From: Tepidimonas aquatica
Lineage (GTDB): Bacteria; Pseudomonadota; Gammaproteobacteria; Burkholderiales; Burkholderiaceae_C
Reading direction: 5' to 3'
NCBI RefSeq assembly: GCF_007556585.1
Contig: NZ_VJNA01000012.1
Coordinates: forward strand, 1-64,000
Length of the DNA stretch: 64,000 bases
In this document: piece by piece, positions 40,536-63,980 of the stretch
How positions within the stretch are numbered: the stretch's first letter is position 1
Layout: every line of letters starts with the position of its first letter
Notes under the pieces: model-generated
The model's input: the letters and a program-made list of their open reading frames with translations, nothing else
Databases searched by the model: none
What the model was told of the DNA's origin: nothing
Position numbers and translations under genes: made by a program

Positions 40536-41368
40536 ACCCGTTCATACATGGTTTTGCCGCGCAGCCGAAACAGGTCACGCGCGTCGGAGAAATTTTCGGC
40601 GTGGCCGACAAACAACGTGCCGTGGGGCTTGAGGACGCGGTGGATGCGGGCCAGCACCTTGCGCTGGGTGTCGTGATCAAAGTAGATCATGACGTTGCGG
40701 CAAAAGACGACGTCGAACGTCTCGCGCAATGGCCAGTGTTCATCGATCAGGTTCAGCGTGAAAAACTCCACATGGCGCTGCAATTCGGGCTTGACGCGCG
40801 CCAGGCCCTCGTTGGCGCCCTTGCCGCGCAAAAAGTACTTGCGTAGTTGCTCCTGCGACAGCAGGCGCAGTTGCTCCAGTTTGTAGGCGCCACGCTGCGC
40901 GGTTTGCAGCACGCGCGTGTCGATGTCGCTGGCCCAGACGCGAAAACGCCCACCGGGGCCCAGCGCATCGCTCATCGTGATGGCGATCGAATACGGTTCC
41001 TCGCCCGTGGAGGCGGCGCTGCACCAGATTTTCCAGTCGTGCGTGGGCTGCTCGCGGGCCAACCGCGCCAGCTCCACGAAGTGGTGTTGCTCGCGAAAAA
41101 ACGACGTCAAGTTGGTGGTGAGCGCGTTGACAAATTCTTGCCACTCGTCCGGATCGCGGCTGCTTTCCAACCAGTCGAGGTAGGCGCGAAAGCTGTCGTG
41201 CCCGGTTTCGCGCAGCCGCCGCGACACGCGGCTGTACACCATGGCCTGTTTGCCTTCGTGCAGGCTGATGCCAGCGTGGCGGTAGATCAGCTGGCGGATA
41301 CGCTCAAAATCCGCCGAGGTCCACGCAAATTCGCACGTTTGCAGTTGGGCTGCGGCATCGGGCTTCAT
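40532..41368 (-). CDS. cheR: Chemotaxis protein methyltransferase CheR
   Basis: CheR adds methyl groups from S-adenosylmethionine to receptor glutamates. The 278 residues have the N-terminal helical domain (about 1-90), the SAM site segment WCSAASTGEEPYSIAI near 130, and DVVFCRNVMIYFD near 225, both typical of the family. The start ATG overlaps the cheA stop by ATGA. No C-terminal TPR extension is present, so this is the plain E. coli-type enzyme. Confidence 0.96.
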   Translation of the reverse strand: MKPDAAAQLQTCEFAWTSADFERIRQLIYRHAGISLHEGKQAMVYSRVSRRLRETGHDSFRAYLDWLESSRDPDEWQEFVNALTTNLTSFFREQHHFVELARLAREQPTHDWKIWCSAASTGEEPYSIAITMSDALGPGGRFRVWASDIDTRVLQTAQRGAYKLEQLRLLSQEQLRKYFLRGKGANEGLARVKPELQRHVEFFTLNLIDEHWPLRETFDVVFCRNVMIYFDHDTQRKVLARIHRVLKPHGTLFVGHAENFSDARDLFRLRGKTMYERV

Positions 41369-50731: not shown

Positions 50732-50921
50732 GGTCACAGACTCGTCGTTGGGTTGAACCATCCACCACCGGTGCCGACGGCGACATCGGTGGGACGCTGC
50801 CTATTGTGGCATGGCGCTGGCTCCACCATGCAGGGTATTGTGTGGGGGCGTGTCGCACGCCATCAGCGCAATAAGCACGGATGGGGCGGCGTTGTTCGGG
50901 CGCTCACGCCCCCGTGGCCGC

Positions 50922-55824: not shown

Positions 55825-57573
55825 TCACGCGGGCACCCCTTCGCCACTGATCCAGCCCTTGATGATATTGGCCACCGCCACCGGGTTTTCCTTGGCCAGA
55901 CGGCGTGCGTCTTCCAGGTGGCGCTCCTCGGGGGTGGGTTCATTGTGCACCGGTTGCGGCAGGCCGGGGCGCTCCACCTCCTCGGCCACCAGTGCCTCCA
56001 GCTGGCTGCCTGGCGCGGGCAGGGCGCCAGCCTGGCCAGGTGCGGCCCCGGCCTCGGGCGCGGGCGGCGGCTGCATCATCTTCAGCGTCGGGCGTACCAT
56101 CAGCAGCCACGCCAGCAGACCGGCCAGCACCAGCCCCAGCGGCGCACCCAGGCTGCGCGCGGTGTCCAACACGTCGGGGTTGCGGTACCAGGGCAGCTCC
56201 ACCGGCTCCACCTTGGGTTGGTTGAACGGCGCGTTGACCACGTTGACCGAGTCACCGCGCTCGCCATTGAAGCCGATCGCTTCGCGCACCAAAGCCTGGA
56301 TTTGCTGCAGCTGTTCCGGCGGCAGCGGGGCGGTGCTGGTGTTGCCTTTTTTGTCGGTGACCTGGGTGTGGTTGATGACCACCGCGGCGCTCAGGCGCCG
56401 CACGGTGCCGCTGGCGTTGCGCGTGACCGACACGGTCTTGTCGACTTCGTAGTTGACCACCTGCTCGCGGCGGCTGCGTGCGTCGGCGCCGGCGGCACCC
56501 TGGCCCACCACCCCGACCGGGGCGCCGGGGCCGTTGATCGGTGCGGCGGTGGCCCCCGGCGCCACGTTGGTGGCCGCACCCGGCACACCGGCGGGTTGCG
56601 TGGGGGTGCCCGCGCTTTCTTCGATGGTTTGCGAGCTGCGCACCGCCGCCGGCTCGTTGCCCTGGTTGGGGCGGTGCTGCTCGGTGGTCGATTCGGTCAG
56701 CGAAAAGTCCACATCGGCCGTGACGGTGGCACGCACGTTGTCGCGCCCGACCACGGGCTCGAGCAGATCCAGAATGCGTTGCTGGTAGGTGCGCTCCAGC
56801 GTGCGCACGTACTCCAACTGACGCGAGTCGATGCCGCCGTCACCCTCCGGCCGCTGCGACAGCAGCGTGCCGTTTTGGTCGATGACGCTGACGGCCTTGG
56901 GGTCGAGCTCCGGCACCGAGCTGGCCACCAAGTGCACGATGCCGGCCACCTGCGTGCGGTCCAGACTGCGGCCCGGGTGCAGCGTCACCACCACGCTGGC
57001 CGATGGCTTTTGCTGCTCGCGGAAAAACCCGTTTTGGTTGGGCAGCGCCAGGTGCACGCGCGCATCCGCCACCGACTGCAGCGACAGGATCGTGCGGGTC
57101 AGCTCGCCCTCCAGGCTACGCTGGAAGTTGACGCGCTCCTGAAACTGCGTCATGCCGAGCTTGGTCTGGTCCATCAGCTCAAAGCCCGCCACCGTACCCT
57201 TGGGCAGCCCCAGGCTGGCCAGCTTCATGCGCACGTCGTTGACGCGGTCGGCTGGCACCAGGATCGCGTTGCCCCCGTCGGCGTGCTTGTACGGCACGTT
57301 CATCTGCGACAGCTGCGCCAGGATCGCGCCGCCGTCCTTGTCCGACAGGTTGGCGTACAGCACGCGGTAGTCGGGCCGGTTCAACATATAAAACGCCGCC
57401 GCCAGCAGCGCCACGGCCGCCAGCGCGCCGGCCACCAGCAGGGCCTTGCGTTGGGTCGGCAAGCGCTGCCAGCCAGCCACCAGCGGCGTCGGCGCGGCGG
57501 CGGGGGGCAGCTCGGCGGCGTCCAGTTCGGTGCCAGTGCTCAGGGCAGGGGTGGTCGTAGCCATGGGCGCCAT
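55825..57573 (-). CDS. fliF: Flagellar MS-ring protein FliF
   Basis: The MS-ring protein has 582 residues. The N-terminal membrane segment (ALLVAGALAAVALLAAAFYML) is about residues 45-65, followed by ring-building motifs (VLYANLSDKDGGAILAQL, RVNFQRSLEGELTRTI), a long disordered Gly/Pro/Ala insert (about 330-380), and a second membrane segment (LGLVLAGLLAWLLMV) before the C-terminal FliG-binding tail. Two starts are possible (57573, 57564). It is divergent from fliE across a 133-base regulatory gap. Confidence 0.95.
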   Translation of the reverse strand: MAPMATTTPALSTGTELDAAELPPAAAPTPLVAGWQRLPTQRKALLVAGALAAVALLAAAFYMLNRPDYRVLYANLSDKDGGAILAQLSQMNVPYKHADGGNAILVPADRVNDVRMKLASLGLPKGTVAGFELMDQTKLGMTQFQERVNFQRSLEGELTRTILSLQSVADARVHLALPNQNGFFREQQKPSASVVVTLHPGRSLDRTQVAGIVHLVASSVPELDPKAVSVIDQNGTLLSQRPEGDGGIDSRQLEYVRTLERTYQQRILDLLEPVVGRDNVRATVTADVDFSLTESTTEQHRPNQGNEPAAVRSSQTIEESAGTPTQPAGVPGAATNVAPGATAAPINGPGAPVGVVGQGAAGADARSRREQVVNYEVDKTVSVTRNASGTVRRLSAAVVINHTQVTDKKGNTSTAPLPPEQLQQIQALVREAIGFNGERGDSVNVVNAPFNQPKVEPVELPWYRNPDVLDTARSLGAPLGLVLAGLLAWLLMVRPTLKMMQPPPAPEAGAAPGQAGALPAPGSQLEALVAEEVERPGLPQPVHNEPTPEERHLEDARRLAKENPVAVANIIKGWISGEGVPA

Positions 57574-57599
57574 TATTCGCCCACCGCGCCGCGCGGCTA

Positions 57600-57651
57600 A
57601 AGCGCAAACAGACCGGCGGCGCAGGCGCTGTTTGCGCTTATGCGCCGCCGG
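57600..57651 (+). promoter_or_regulatory. Two interleaved perfect inverted repeats in the fliF-fliE gap
   Basis: Arm A AAGCGCAAACAG (57600-57611) pairs with CTGTTTGCGCTT (57628-57639), 12 bp, 16 apart. Arm B CCGGCGGCGCA (57613-57623) pairs with TGCGCCGCCGG (57641-57651), 11 bp, 17 apart. The order is A-B-A'-B'. In enterobacteria this same gap contains FlhDC boxes, which are spaced inverted repeats, so A/A' may be the binding site of the master regulator here. The identity of the regulator is inference. Confidence 0.6.
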
Positions 57652-57706
57652 GGCCTGCCGTTACGATGCCCCCAAGCGTTGTCACGCCCCACCAGGAGAA
57701 CTGCCC

Positions 57707-58090
57707 ATGGACCTGCGACTGCTGCCTTTGGCCGGTGCTGCCCTGAGCCCCGCCCAAGCCGCCGCACTGCGCGCGGCCCAAAAGGCACTGGCGGCCAAAG
57801 CCGCCGCCGGGGCGACGCCGGTGGCCAACCCCGCTTCCCCCAACCCGACGGTGCGCGCCACCACTCAGGCGGGCTTTGGCGACGCGCTGCGCAACGCCCT
57901 GCGCGAGGTCAGCGCCGCGCAGCAACACGCCTCCGAGCTGCAAAACCGCGTGCAGATGGGCGACCGCAGCGCCAGCCTGGAGCAAACCATGGTGGCGATG
58001 CAAAAAGCCCAAATCGGCTTTCAGGCCGCGCTGCACGTGCGCAACCGCATGATGCAGGCGTACACCGACGTGATGAACATGCAGGTGTGA
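57707..58090 (+). CDS. fliE: Flagellar hook-basal body protein FliE
   Basis: FliE joins the MS ring to the rod. The 127 residues start MDLRLLPLAGAALSPAQAAAL at ATG 57707 after AGGAGA; the second half contains GFGDALRNALREVSAAQQHA and LEQTMVAMQKAQIGFQAALHVRN, the FliE signature of helices ending YTDVMNMQV. It is the only flagellar gene on the plus strand here, divergent from fliF and convergent with fliT. Confidence 0.95.
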   Translation: MDLRLLPLAGAALSPAQAAALRAAQKALAAKAAAGATPVANPASPNPTVRATTQAGFGDALRNALREVSAAQQHASELQNRVQMGDRSASLEQTMVAMQKAQIGFQAALHVRNRMMQAYTDVMNMQV

Positions 58091-59143: not shown

Positions 59144-60655
59144 TCAGCCTTGCAGCAGCCGCAGCACGTTCTGCGGCATTTGGTTGGCCTGGGCGACCAT
59201 GGCGGTGCCGGCCTGCTGCAGGATCTGGGCGCGCGAGAGGGCGGCCGTTTCGGCGGCGAAGTCGGCGTCCTGGATGCGGCTGCGGCTGGCGGTGAGGTTT
59301 TCGGCGTTGATTTGCAGGTTGCTCACCACGGCCTCGAAGCGGCTCTGGATGGCGCCAAATGTGCTGCGCAGGTTGCTCACCGCGGTCAGGGCCGAGTCGA
59401 CGCGGTAGATCGCTGTGTTGGCGTTGGCCACTGTCTTCACGTCGATCTGCGAGATCGAGCCCGAGTCCTTGGAGATGGTGAAGTTGGCCGAGGCAAAGCC
59501 AAGTGCCGCACCGTCACCGGTGATGATGATGTTCTCGCTTGCGGTCAGGGTCAACCGCCCGCCGTTGACCGCGGTGGCATTCGTGCTGTTGTTGGTGGCG
59601 TCGGCAAACGCACCGATCGTGCCTTGGTAATAGGTCACGCCGTTGAGTGCGATATTGCCGCTACCGGCACTGATGCCGCCCGTCGCACCGCCGCCGAGGG
59701 TTTGACCGATCGCGATGTCACGCCCGTCGGCCGCCGTGAGCAGCAGGTTGCTGCCGTTGAGGATGGCGGTGACGCCGGTGTTATTTTGCTGGGCGTTGAT
59801 GGCGTCGGTGATCTGCTGCGTGGTCAGGGCGCCGGAGGACAGGTCGGTCCCGTTGAAGATATCGATGCCGTTGATGCGCAGGGAATAGGTTTGGCCGGCA
59901 CCACTCGAAGTGTTTGCGATCTGCAAGGCAATCGTGTTGGTGGCGGTCGCGGTCAGACCGGAGACGTTGGCCGAATTGATGGCATTGGCCTTGGCGAAGG
60001 CGCTGCCCGCGGACTGGCCGTTGGCGCTGCCGGCCACCGACTGGCCGATGGTGACCGCGGTGCCGCTGCCGACCTGGATGGTGCCCGTGCCGGGAAGGGC
60101 CGCCGTGCTGACCTCGGTGCTGGACGTGCCCTGTGCGAAGGCGCCGATGGCGGTGGAGCGCATGCTGGTGGCCAGATTCAGGCCGATGGTGTCACCGACG
60201 TTGGCGCCGACTTGGAAGACCGCGCTGCCGAAGGTGCCATCGAGCAGTTTTTGGCCGTTGAAGGAGGTTTGGGTGGCGATGCGCTCGATTTCGGCAATGC
60301 GCTGCTGCACTTCGAGGTCGAGGGCGGCGCGGTCGCCGGCGCTGTTGGTGGCGTTGGCGGCCTGAACGGCCAGCTCGCGGATGCGCTGCAGGTTGGAGGT
60401 GATTTCGGCCAGGGCACCTTCGCCGGTTTGCGCCAGCGAGACGCCGTCATTGGCGTTGCGCACTGCTTGGTTGAGGCCACGGATTTGCGTGGTCATGCGC
60501 TCCGAGATGGCCATGCCGGCGGCGTCGTCCTTGGCGCTGTTGATGCGCAGGCCCGAGGACAGGCGCTGCATCGCGGTCTGCAGGGCGTTTTGCGATGCGT
60601 TGAGGTTGCGCTGGGCGTTCAGCGACATCACGTTGGTATTGATGATCTGCGGCAT
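59144..60655 (-). CDS. fliC: Flagellin (second copy, downstream of fliD)
   Basis: Filament subunit of 503 residues. The N-terminal D0/D1 part (MPQIINTNVMSLNAQRNLNA, QRLSSGLRINSAKDDAAG, LQRIRELAVQAANATNS) and C-terminal D1/D0 part (LTASRSRIQDADFAAETAAL, QAGTAMVAQANQMPQNVLRL) are canonical; the middle (about 180-400) is the variable exposed domain. Its first 493 codons are identical to the other flagellin except one silent base; only the last few residues differ (PQNVLRLLQG against PQGVLALLR). I could find no sigma-28 promoter in the 170 bases upstream, so readthrough or another promoter may serve it. The start is ATG 60653-60655. Confidence 0.96.
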   Translation of the reverse strand: MPQIINTNVMSLNAQRNLNASQNALQTAMQRLSSGLRINSAKDDAAGMAISERMTTQIRGLNQAVRNANDGVSLAQTGEGALAEITSNLQRIRELAVQAANATNSAGDRAALDLEVQQRIAEIERIATQTSFNGQKLLDGTFGSAVFQVGANVGDTIGLNLATSMRSTAIGAFAQGTSSTEVSTAALPGTGTIQVGSGTAVTIGQSVAGSANGQSAGSAFAKANAINSANVSGLTATATNTIALQIANTSSGAGQTYSLRINGIDIFNGTDLSSGALTTQQITDAINAQQNNTGVTAILNGSNLLLTAADGRDIAIGQTLGGGATGGISAGSGNIALNGVTYYQGTIGAFADATNNSTNATAVNGGRLTLTASENIIITGDGAALGFASANFTISKDSGSISQIDVKTVANANTAIYRVDSALTAVSNLRSTFGAIQSRFEAVVSNLQINAENLTASRSRIQDADFAAETAALSRAQILQQAGTAMVAQANQMPQNVLRLLQG

Positions 60656-60660
60656 GGCGG
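59171..60660 (-). repeat. Flagellin direct repeat, copy 2 (1,490 bp)
   Basis: This segment matches 62403-63892 over 1,490 bases with the same spacing throughout (offset 3,232) and only one difference that I found (60638 A against 63870 G on the plus strand). The similarity ends abruptly at both sides, inside the last codons of the gene and about 5 bases before the start codon. Confidence 0.9.
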
Positions 60661-60765
60661 CTCTCCTGGGCAGCGAAAGACAGGGATCGGTCCGTGCGCC
60701 GGCACCCCGCCGGCGGGTGGGCGGGGGCACGGCCCCGCCCGGTGATTCCGATTCTGAGGCGGCCC

Positions 60766-60795
60766 ATGAAAACCAAAGCCCCGATGAACGGGGCT
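60766..60795 (-). terminator. Terminator after fliD
   Basis: The 7-bp perfect stem AGCCCCG/CGGGGCT with a 5-base loop (60777-60795) is followed on the minus strand by TTGGTTTTC. It lies about 30 bases past the fliD stop and before the second flagellin gene. Confidence 0.8.
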
Positions 60796-60826
60796 AGGCT
60801 GGCGCATTTCCGCGGTTGGTTTGGCT

Positions 60827-62378: not shown

Positions 62379-63887
62379 TCAGCGCAGCAGGGCCAGCACA
62401 CCCTGCGGCATTTGGTTGGCCTGGGCGACCATGGCGGTGCCGGCCTGCTGCAGGATCTGGGCGCGCGAGAGGGCGGCCGTTTCGGCGGCGAAGTCGGCGT
62501 CCTGGATGCGGCTGCGGCTGGCGGTGAGGTTTTCGGCGTTGATTTGCAGGTTGCTCACCACGGCCTCGAAGCGGCTCTGGATGGCGCCAAATGTGCTGCG
62601 CAGGTTGCTCACCGCGGTCAGGGCCGAGTCGACGCGGTAGATCGCTGTGTTGGCGTTGGCCACTGTCTTCACGTCGATCTGCGAGATCGAGCCCGAGTCC
62701 TTGGAGATGGTGAAGTTGGCCGAGGCAAAGCCAAGTGCCGCACCGTCACCGGTGATGATGATGTTCTCGCTTGCGGTCAGGGTCAACCGCCCGCCGTTGA
62801 CCGCGGTGGCATTCGTGCTGTTGTTGGTGGCGTCGGCAAACGCACCGATCGTGCCTTGGTAATAGGTCACGCCGTTGAGTGCGATATTGCCGCTACCGGC
62901 ACTGATGCCGCCCGTCGCACCGCCGCCGAGGGTTTGACCGATCGCGATGTCACGCCCGTCGGCCGCCGTGAGCAGCAGGTTGCTGCCGTTGAGGATGGCG
63001 GTGACGCCGGTGTTATTTTGCTGGGCGTTGATGGCGTCGGTGATCTGCTGCGTGGTCAGGGCGCCGGAGGACAGGTCGGTCCCGTTGAAGATATCGATGC
63101 CGTTGATGCGCAGGGAATAGGTTTGGCCGGCACCACTCGAAGTGTTTGCGATCTGCAAGGCAATCGTGTTGGTGGCGGTCGCGGTCAGACCGGAGACGTT
63201 GGCCGAATTGATGGCATTGGCCTTGGCGAAGGCGCTGCCCGCGGACTGGCCGTTGGCGCTGCCGGCCACCGACTGGCCGATGGTGACCGCGGTGCCGCTG
63301 CCGACCTGGATGGTGCCCGTGCCGGGAAGGGCCGCCGTGCTGACCTCGGTGCTGGACGTGCCCTGTGCGAAGGCGCCGATGGCGGTGGAGCGCATGCTGG
63401 TGGCCAGATTCAGGCCGATGGTGTCACCGACGTTGGCGCCGACTTGGAAGACCGCGCTGCCGAAGGTGCCATCGAGCAGTTTTTGGCCGTTGAAGGAGGT
63501 TTGGGTGGCGATGCGCTCGATTTCGGCAATGCGCTGCTGCACTTCGAGGTCGAGGGCGGCGCGGTCGCCGGCGCTGTTGGTGGCGTTGGCGGCCTGAACG
63601 GCCAGCTCGCGGATGCGCTGCAGGTTGGAGGTGATTTCGGCCAGGGCACCTTCGCCGGTTTGCGCCAGCGAGACGCCGTCATTGGCGTTGCGCACTGCTT
63701 GGTTGAGGCCACGGATTTGCGTGGTCATGCGCTCCGAGATGGCCATGCCGGCGGCGTCGTCCTTGGCGCTGTTGATGCGCAGGCCCGAGGACAGGCGCTG
63801 CATCGCGGTCTGCAGGGCGTTTTGCGATGCGTTGAGGTTGCGCTGGGCGTTCAGCGACATCACGTTGGTGTTGATGATCTGCGGCAT
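62379..63887 (-). CDS. fliC: Flagellin (first copy, upstream of fliD)
   Basis: A flagellin of 502 residues, MPQIINTNVMSLNAQRNLNA to ANQMPQGVLALLR. The domain layout is the same as in the second copy: conserved helical ends for polymerisation and the TLR5-type LQRIRELAVQ segment near residue 90, with a variable centre. The start is ATG 63885-63887, 5 bases after the end of the repeat unit on the outer side. Upstream there is a plausible but incomplete sigma-28 site. Which copy dominates the filament cannot be read from sequence. Confidence 0.96.
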   Translation of the reverse strand: MPQIINTNVMSLNAQRNLNASQNALQTAMQRLSSGLRINSAKDDAAGMAISERMTTQIRGLNQAVRNANDGVSLAQTGEGALAEITSNLQRIRELAVQAANATNSAGDRAALDLEVQQRIAEIERIATQTSFNGQKLLDGTFGSAVFQVGANVGDTIGLNLATSMRSTAIGAFAQGTSSTEVSTAALPGTGTIQVGSGTAVTIGQSVAGSANGQSAGSAFAKANAINSANVSGLTATATNTIALQIANTSSGAGQTYSLRINGIDIFNGTDLSSGALTTQQITDAINAQQNNTGVTAILNGSNLLLTAADGRDIAIGQTLGGGATGGISAGSGNIALNGVTYYQGTIGAFADATNNSTNATAVNGGRLTLTASENIIITGDGAALGFASANFTISKDSGSISQIDVKTVANANTAIYRVDSALTAVSNLRSTFGAIQSRFEAVVSNLQINAENLTASRSRIQDADFAAETAALSRAQILQQAGTAMVAQANQMPQGVLALLR

Positions 63888-63892
63888 GGCGG
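62403..63892 (-). repeat. Flagellin direct repeat, copy 1 (1,490 bp)
   Basis: Partner of 59171-60660 in the same orientation, with fliD and its two flanking terminators between them. Recombination between the copies would remove 3,232 bases, that is fliD and one flagellin gene. Confidence 0.9.
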
Positions 63893-63980
63893 TCACTCCT
63901 TCGGGTGGTTGCCGGTGGGCTGGCTGCTTCGGGCCCCGCGCCCTGCGCTTCGCCAACCACTTGACATCCGGTTGCCAGCT

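Follow-up and report, generated by a model that had tools for sequence, protein, structure and literature searches.

The window, a 64-kb stretch on contig C4 of the 2.67-Mb genome of the heat-loving bacterium Tepidimonas aquatica, contains the divergent flagellar genes fliF (minus strand) and fliE (plus strand). Their products matched YscJ_FliF and FliE, and showed 99% (557 columns) and 93% identity to FliF and FliE of Tepidimonas ignava, respectively. From the listed ORF start of fliF at 57573 to that of fliE at 57707, the gap measured 133 bases, in agreement with the preliminary description. The true start of fliF is probably 57564, which extends the gap to 142 bases; from this likely start (ATG at 57564–57562), fliF occupies 55825–57564. 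fliE occupies 57707–58090 and has a normal leader with an AGGAG-type ribosome site before its ATG, as judged by eye. Two inverted repeats are interleaved in the gap in the order A-B-A'-B'. Arms A (57600–57611, AAGCGCAAACAG) and A' (57628–57639) are exact reverse complements of 12 bp, and arms B (57613–57623, CCGGCGGCGCA) and B' (57641–57651) are exact reverse complements of 11 bp. Both repeats had been described as perfect, with these arm lengths, and recomputation gave exactly the same result.

The frequency of such repeats was estimated from 12 Markov versions of the window (six each of order 1 and order 2), with a loop of 0–40. The mean numbers of perfect repeats per 64 kb were 2.0 for 11-bp arms and 0.67 or 0.33 for 12-bp arms. 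Counting A and B, the real window contained seven perfect repeats with arms of 11 bp or more. Single repeats of 11–12 bp thus arise by chance in such DNA. No interleaved arm pair of at least 10 bp was found in the 12 Markov versions, in line with the earlier view that two such repeats nested out of phase are unlikely by chance. Furthermore, the Tepidimonas gaps and the comparison with T. ignava revealed that the two repeats differ in kind, A/A' being conserved and B/B' not.

We compared the window with the best 80 of 136 loci encoding a FliE relative, which yielded 81 fliE-fliF gaps; fliF was located upstream of fliE on the opposite strand in all 80 relative loci. Separate models of the left and the right half-site, with seeds chosen by eye in gaps whose halves were spaced by 16 nt, were refined on all 81 gaps, and the spacing was allowed to vary from 14 to 19. 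The best pair of half-sites (15 bp each) was separated by 16 nt in 72 of these 81 gaps and in 61 of the 70 gaps outside the Tepidimonas clade, and the median pair score across the 81 gaps was 26.8 bits. When shuffled gaps were put through the identical seeding and training (8 runs), the medians were 7.0–10.7, and the commonest spacing occurred in at most 21 of 81. The two halves, each trained separately, yielded nearly the same inverted word, approximately C-x-(A/T)-(A/T)-x-G-C-x-C-G-A-A-x-A-G. In the window, the predicted FlhDC box was located at 57597–57642; its score was 36.7 bits, falling to 30.5 bits when the Tepidimonas clade was left out of the training. It consists of a half-site at 57597–57611 (CTAAAGCGCAAACAG) that contains A, a 16-nt spacer at 57612–57627, and an inverted half-site at 57628–57642 (CTGTTTGCGCTTATG) that contains A'. 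Alignment of the gap across relatives, which the preliminary description had proposed as a check, thus revealed that the half-sites around A/A' are conserved at one spacing.

The Tepidimonas clade was defined as the 11 rows grouping on the FliF tree (the window, L011–L017, L019, L020, and L022). The title and the tree disagreed for L019, which is titled Hydrogenophaga sp. TT109 and falls within Tepidimonas. L024, titled Tepidimonas sp. UBA997, grouped with Tepidicella and was excluded from the clade count.

The B and B' arms were perfectly paired (11/11) in the window alone; the remaining 10 clade gaps, that of T. ignava included, had 1–6 of the 11 positions paired. The 133-bp gaps of the window and T. 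ignava differed at 16 sites, none of which was among the 30 half-site bases. By comparison, 5 of the 22 bases of the B arms differed: 2/11 in B, which lies inside the box spacer, and 3/11 in B', which extends from the outer edge of the box into the stretch between the box and the −10. It is very improbable that B/B' acts as a second operator specific to this species, or as a DNA structure competing with FlhDC binding. In favor of such a role, shuffling the rest of the gap around fixed box halves produced a second perfect repeat of 11 bp or more in 0.23% of 3000 shuffles, and in 0.47% of 3000 when shuffling was limited to the spacer and flank. This rarity is tempered by the fact that the gap came to notice for holding a repeat, and 11-bp arms arise by chance about twice per 64 kb; in addition, the loss of pairing in all 10 other clade gaps and the excess of changes over the half-sites argue against this reading. 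The B and B' arms are probably without function, and their pairing looks like a coincidental match of a GC-rich spacer with a GC-rich flank, seen in this genome only. The preliminary description had proposed B/B' as a second operator or a competing hairpin; this proposal was not borne out, as even in the closest species the pairing is missing, and the predicted transcription starts of fliF and fliE both lie downstream of the entire A-B-A'-B' block.

The search for −10 elements in the flanks of the box covered 14 offsets (12–25 nt) in those gaps whose box scored at least 20, namely 65 of the 81 (from the window and the best 80 of 136 loci). On the fliF side, the best −10-like hexamer (AATAAT, GATAAT, CATAAT, AACAAT, and similar) was located at a distance of 17–19 nt in all 65 gaps. 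On the fliE side, the best hexamer (TACGAT, TAGCAT, TACCAT, and similar) was located at 16–19 nt, again in 65 of 65, and a predicted sigma-70 −10 thus occurs at a set distance of 16–19 nt on both sides. When the flanks were shuffled (200 runs), 4/6 matches at 16–19 nt were found in a mean of 4.0 of 65 gaps (maximum 10) on the fliF side and 3.5 of 65 (maximum 8) on the fliE side. Widening the search to 6–33 nt shifted just 1 of the 130 hexamers. In the window, the predicted −10 of fliF is AATAAT on the minus strand (57572–57577) and that of fliE is TACGAT on the plus strand (57662–57667), each 19 nt outside the box. Neither differed from its T. ignava counterpart (0/6 bases for fliE). The predicted starts are 57564 for fliF and approximately 57675 for fliE, and the −10 positions accordingly place the center of the box approximately 55 bp upstream of each.

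Other early flagellar genes were searched for the same signal. The arm AAGCGCAAACAG had no exact copy in the T. aquatica genome beyond the two arms themselves, and the search with up to one mismatch gave 28 matches versus 12 for the reversed control, indicating that the raw arm sequence is uninformative. With up to three mismatches, one strict 42-base pattern matched the fliE/fliF site alone and another gave no match. Detection of further class II sites needed a weight matrix. We scanned the window and three other stretches of the same genome (L122, L123, and L124) with a symmetric matrix trained on fliE-fliF boxes only (67 gaps, or 56 without the Tepidimonas clade). A second predicted FlhDC box was found upstream of fliL at 50861–50906 on the minus strand; it scored 24.8 bits, or 24.1 bits with the clade left out, and the product of the gene matched FliL. 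The gap between flgA and flgB contained a box of 27.2 bits (L124:10791; 26.1 bits with the clade left out), and boxes of 17.5–32.3 bits were present in this gap in all 8 Tepidimonas genomes examined, out of 11. With the leave-clade-out matrix, none of 20 Markov windows contained a hit of 21 bits or more, and no hit above 13.4 bits was found in 76 kb of real DNA, most of it non-flagellar; the fliL and flgA/flgB boxes are therefore well clear of background. As judged by eye, a CACAAT −10-like site lies 18 nt beyond the fliL box, and the −10-like sites of fliL, flgB, flgA, and flhB in this genome lie 17–18 nt outside the boxes.

The site upstream of flhB (L124:2807) scored 14.9 bits with a spacing of 15, and below 12 bits with the clade left out. 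A site at 40751 in the window, not known to be linked to any flagellar promoter, scored about as high (14.4 bits). Across 8 Tepidimonas genomes, the best flhB site scored 1.8–19.7 bits, with a spacing of 15 in 6 of 8. The flhB site is no better than background. In T. aquatica, it sits on a terminator-like hairpin, and the box and the terminator may share bases. A match at 60774–60819 upstream of one fliC (18.9 bits; 19.7 bits with the clade left out) was set aside, though not disproved; it overlaps a terminator-like palindrome after fliD, as judged by eye, and its score exceeds nearly all shuffled hits (each Markov window contained 0.05–0.1 hits of 18 bits or more). The two fliC copies (59144–60730 and 62379–63956, minus strand) are nearly identical and flank fliD, and the ends of their translations differ by eye. 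The proposal that the arm would recur near other early flagellar genes thus failed for the exact arm and held for a degenerate motif, which was found at fliE/fliF, fliL, and flgA/flgB. Together with the conserved box, this recurrence supports the earlier suggestion that A/A' may be the site of the master regulator.

The genes for FlhD and FlhC were identified together on contig C67 of the T. aquatica genome. FlhC matched the FlhC chains of 8j56 and 2avu over nearly its full length, and its C-terminal cysteines aligned with those of 8j56. FlhD matched 8j56, 5hxg, and 1g8e. We next scored the DNA upstream of fliE, regardless of the orientation of fliF, across genomes. FliE was found in 75 of 100 genomes, including that of T. 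aquatica, and 73 of the 74 others were scorable; G052, with short DNA upstream of fliE, and G000 were omitted, the best FliE copy per genome was used, and the second-copy stretches L150 and L152 were excluded. A box of at least 15 bits was present in 37 of 49 genomes with FlhC and in 3 of 22 lacking it, and in neither of the 2 with a weak FlhC match, some of the species counted being also in the training set of the matrix. Reversed-sequence controls gave a box in none of the 73 genomes. A rank test of the 40 FlhC-bearing genomes outside the genus Tepidimonas against the 22 without FlhC, one of which (G001) belongs to that genus, gave p = 7.6e-6. The exceptions were the 12 of 49 FlhC-bearing genomes scoring below 15 bits and three FlhC-less genomes with a box, namely G001 (assembly 88% complete), G054 (86%), and G083. 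The last is a complete genome from the same order, in which a 20.7-bit FlhDC-like box was located upstream of fliE and no FlhC was found.

FlhDC boxes are known from other bacteria. In the available excerpt of PMC12888815, a box with the motif ANNA-N18-TNWT-N6-WT is described for Acidovorax delafieldii (Burkholderiales, Comamonadaceae), with fliE, fliF, fliL, flgA, and flgB as targets. Acidovorax and Tepidimonas belong to the same order, Tepidimonas being without a family in the NCBI taxonomy, and they share these target genes. The window box fits the Acidovorax motif in one of its two orientations, when read towards fliF. Among the 81 gaps (the window and the best 80 of 136 loci), this motif was present at the box in 30 and anywhere in 33, versus a mean of 1.65 in shuffled gaps. 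Unlike the Acidovorax site, which was compared by its excerpted motif, the Tepidimonas box has a perfect 12-bp palindrome as its core, a second repeat overlapping it, and a fliF predicted to be leaderless. For E. coli, excerpts give the FlhDC consensus as AAYGSSNNAAATAGCG-N10-12-inverse (PMC9962212), term the motif degenerate, and list flgAMN, flgB-J, flhBAE, fliAZY, fliE, fliF-K, and fliL-R as class II operons (PMC4183435). On the basis of these excerpts, inverted half-sites in the divergent fliE/fliF gap and class II sigma-70 promoters are common to both systems. Counted from the AAA core, AAACAGAC and CGCTGTTT are 12 nt apart in the window by eye, within the N10-12 of E. coli, and the 16-bp E. 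coli half-site is partly matched by eye. The Tepidimonas site differs from the excerpted E. coli consensus in being a GC-rich variant with AAACAG instead of AAATAG and in having one dominant spacing rather than 10–12. Since FlhDC boxes at these promoters have been published for Acidovorax, the kind of site is already known and the window box is a new instance of it.

It is very improbable that A/A' is the site of a flagellar regulator other than FlhDC. The degenerate match to the E. coli consensus and the box-like sites of the three FlhC-less genomes would fit such a regulator; the tracking of the box with FlhC across genomes, and the resemblance of its geometry and targets to the E. coli and Acidovorax FlhDC regulons in the excerpts cited, argue against it. 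That A and B are alternative hairpins (an attenuator or a pseudoknot) in a transcript is the most improbable of the readings: although both repeats could pair as RNA, judging from the sequence, both lie upstream of both predicted starts and hence outside the predicted transcripts, the box halves are complementary at only 9–13 of 15 columns in 10 clade relatives, and the B pairs are lost in all 10 of these.

A/A' very probably forms the core of an FlhDC box common to two divergent class II promoters, those of fliE and the fliF operon, with B/B' as a coincidence. From the computed conservation, spacing, −10 geometry, recurrence at early promoters, and presence of FlhDC, we infer FlhDC binding, activation, and the start sites. 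FlhD4C2 would bind the two inverted half-sites at 57597–57611 and 57628–57642 and, from approximately 55 bp upstream of each predicted start, would recruit sigma-70 RNA polymerase to the −10 on either side and thereby switch on fliE together with the fliF operon.

The first ATG of the listed fliF ORF (57573–57571) overlaps the −10. The ATG at 57564 was located exactly 7 nt past the −10 in all 11 gaps of the Tepidimonas clade, though the 7 intervening bases vary, and the same arrangement was found in Macromonas (L045) and in a MAG locus (L026). In the other 52 gaps, the fliF ATG was located 22–84 nt after the −10 in 49, including L024 (36 nt), and two had no call; the 8-nt distance in Pseudacidovorax (L049) is thought to reflect a mis-called start. 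Mapping the 7-nt trait on a quick 64-row FliF tree required 2 changes. For flgA, an in-frame ATG or GTG was located 6–8 nt after TACAGT in all 8 Tepidimonas genomes examined (L124:10759 region in T. aquatica); seven of the 8 have other in-frame starts within the next 44 codons, so that this start call is not forced, whereas L128 has none. With start codons directly behind the −10, the fliF and flgA mRNAs are predicted to be leaderless. A literature search on leaderless flagellar transcripts gave a single paper, which concerns Methylosinus sporium. As judged by eye, fliE and flgB of T. aquatica have ordinary leaders with purine-rich, ribosome-site-like stretches. We lean towards the view that each of the two divergent Tepidimonas FlhDC promoters may drive one leaderless gene (fliF or flgA) and one with a normal leader and ribosome site (fliE or flgB).

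The repeat can thus be explained as a normal site of the master regulator, and the analysis gives a sharp FlhDC half-site model for GC-rich Burkholderiales, with CTAARGCSCGAAYAG-like half-sites, one dominant spacing, and a −10 at 16–19 nt. It also advises caution, as in 68% GC DNA one of two interleaved perfect repeats can be genuine and the other a coincidence. A minor side result, open to direct testing, is the predicted lack of a leader in the fliF and flgA mRNAs. If the prediction is true, the mRNA for the first membrane-ring protein would be leaderless and that for its partner would not, and a difference in translation would be built in from one common activator site.
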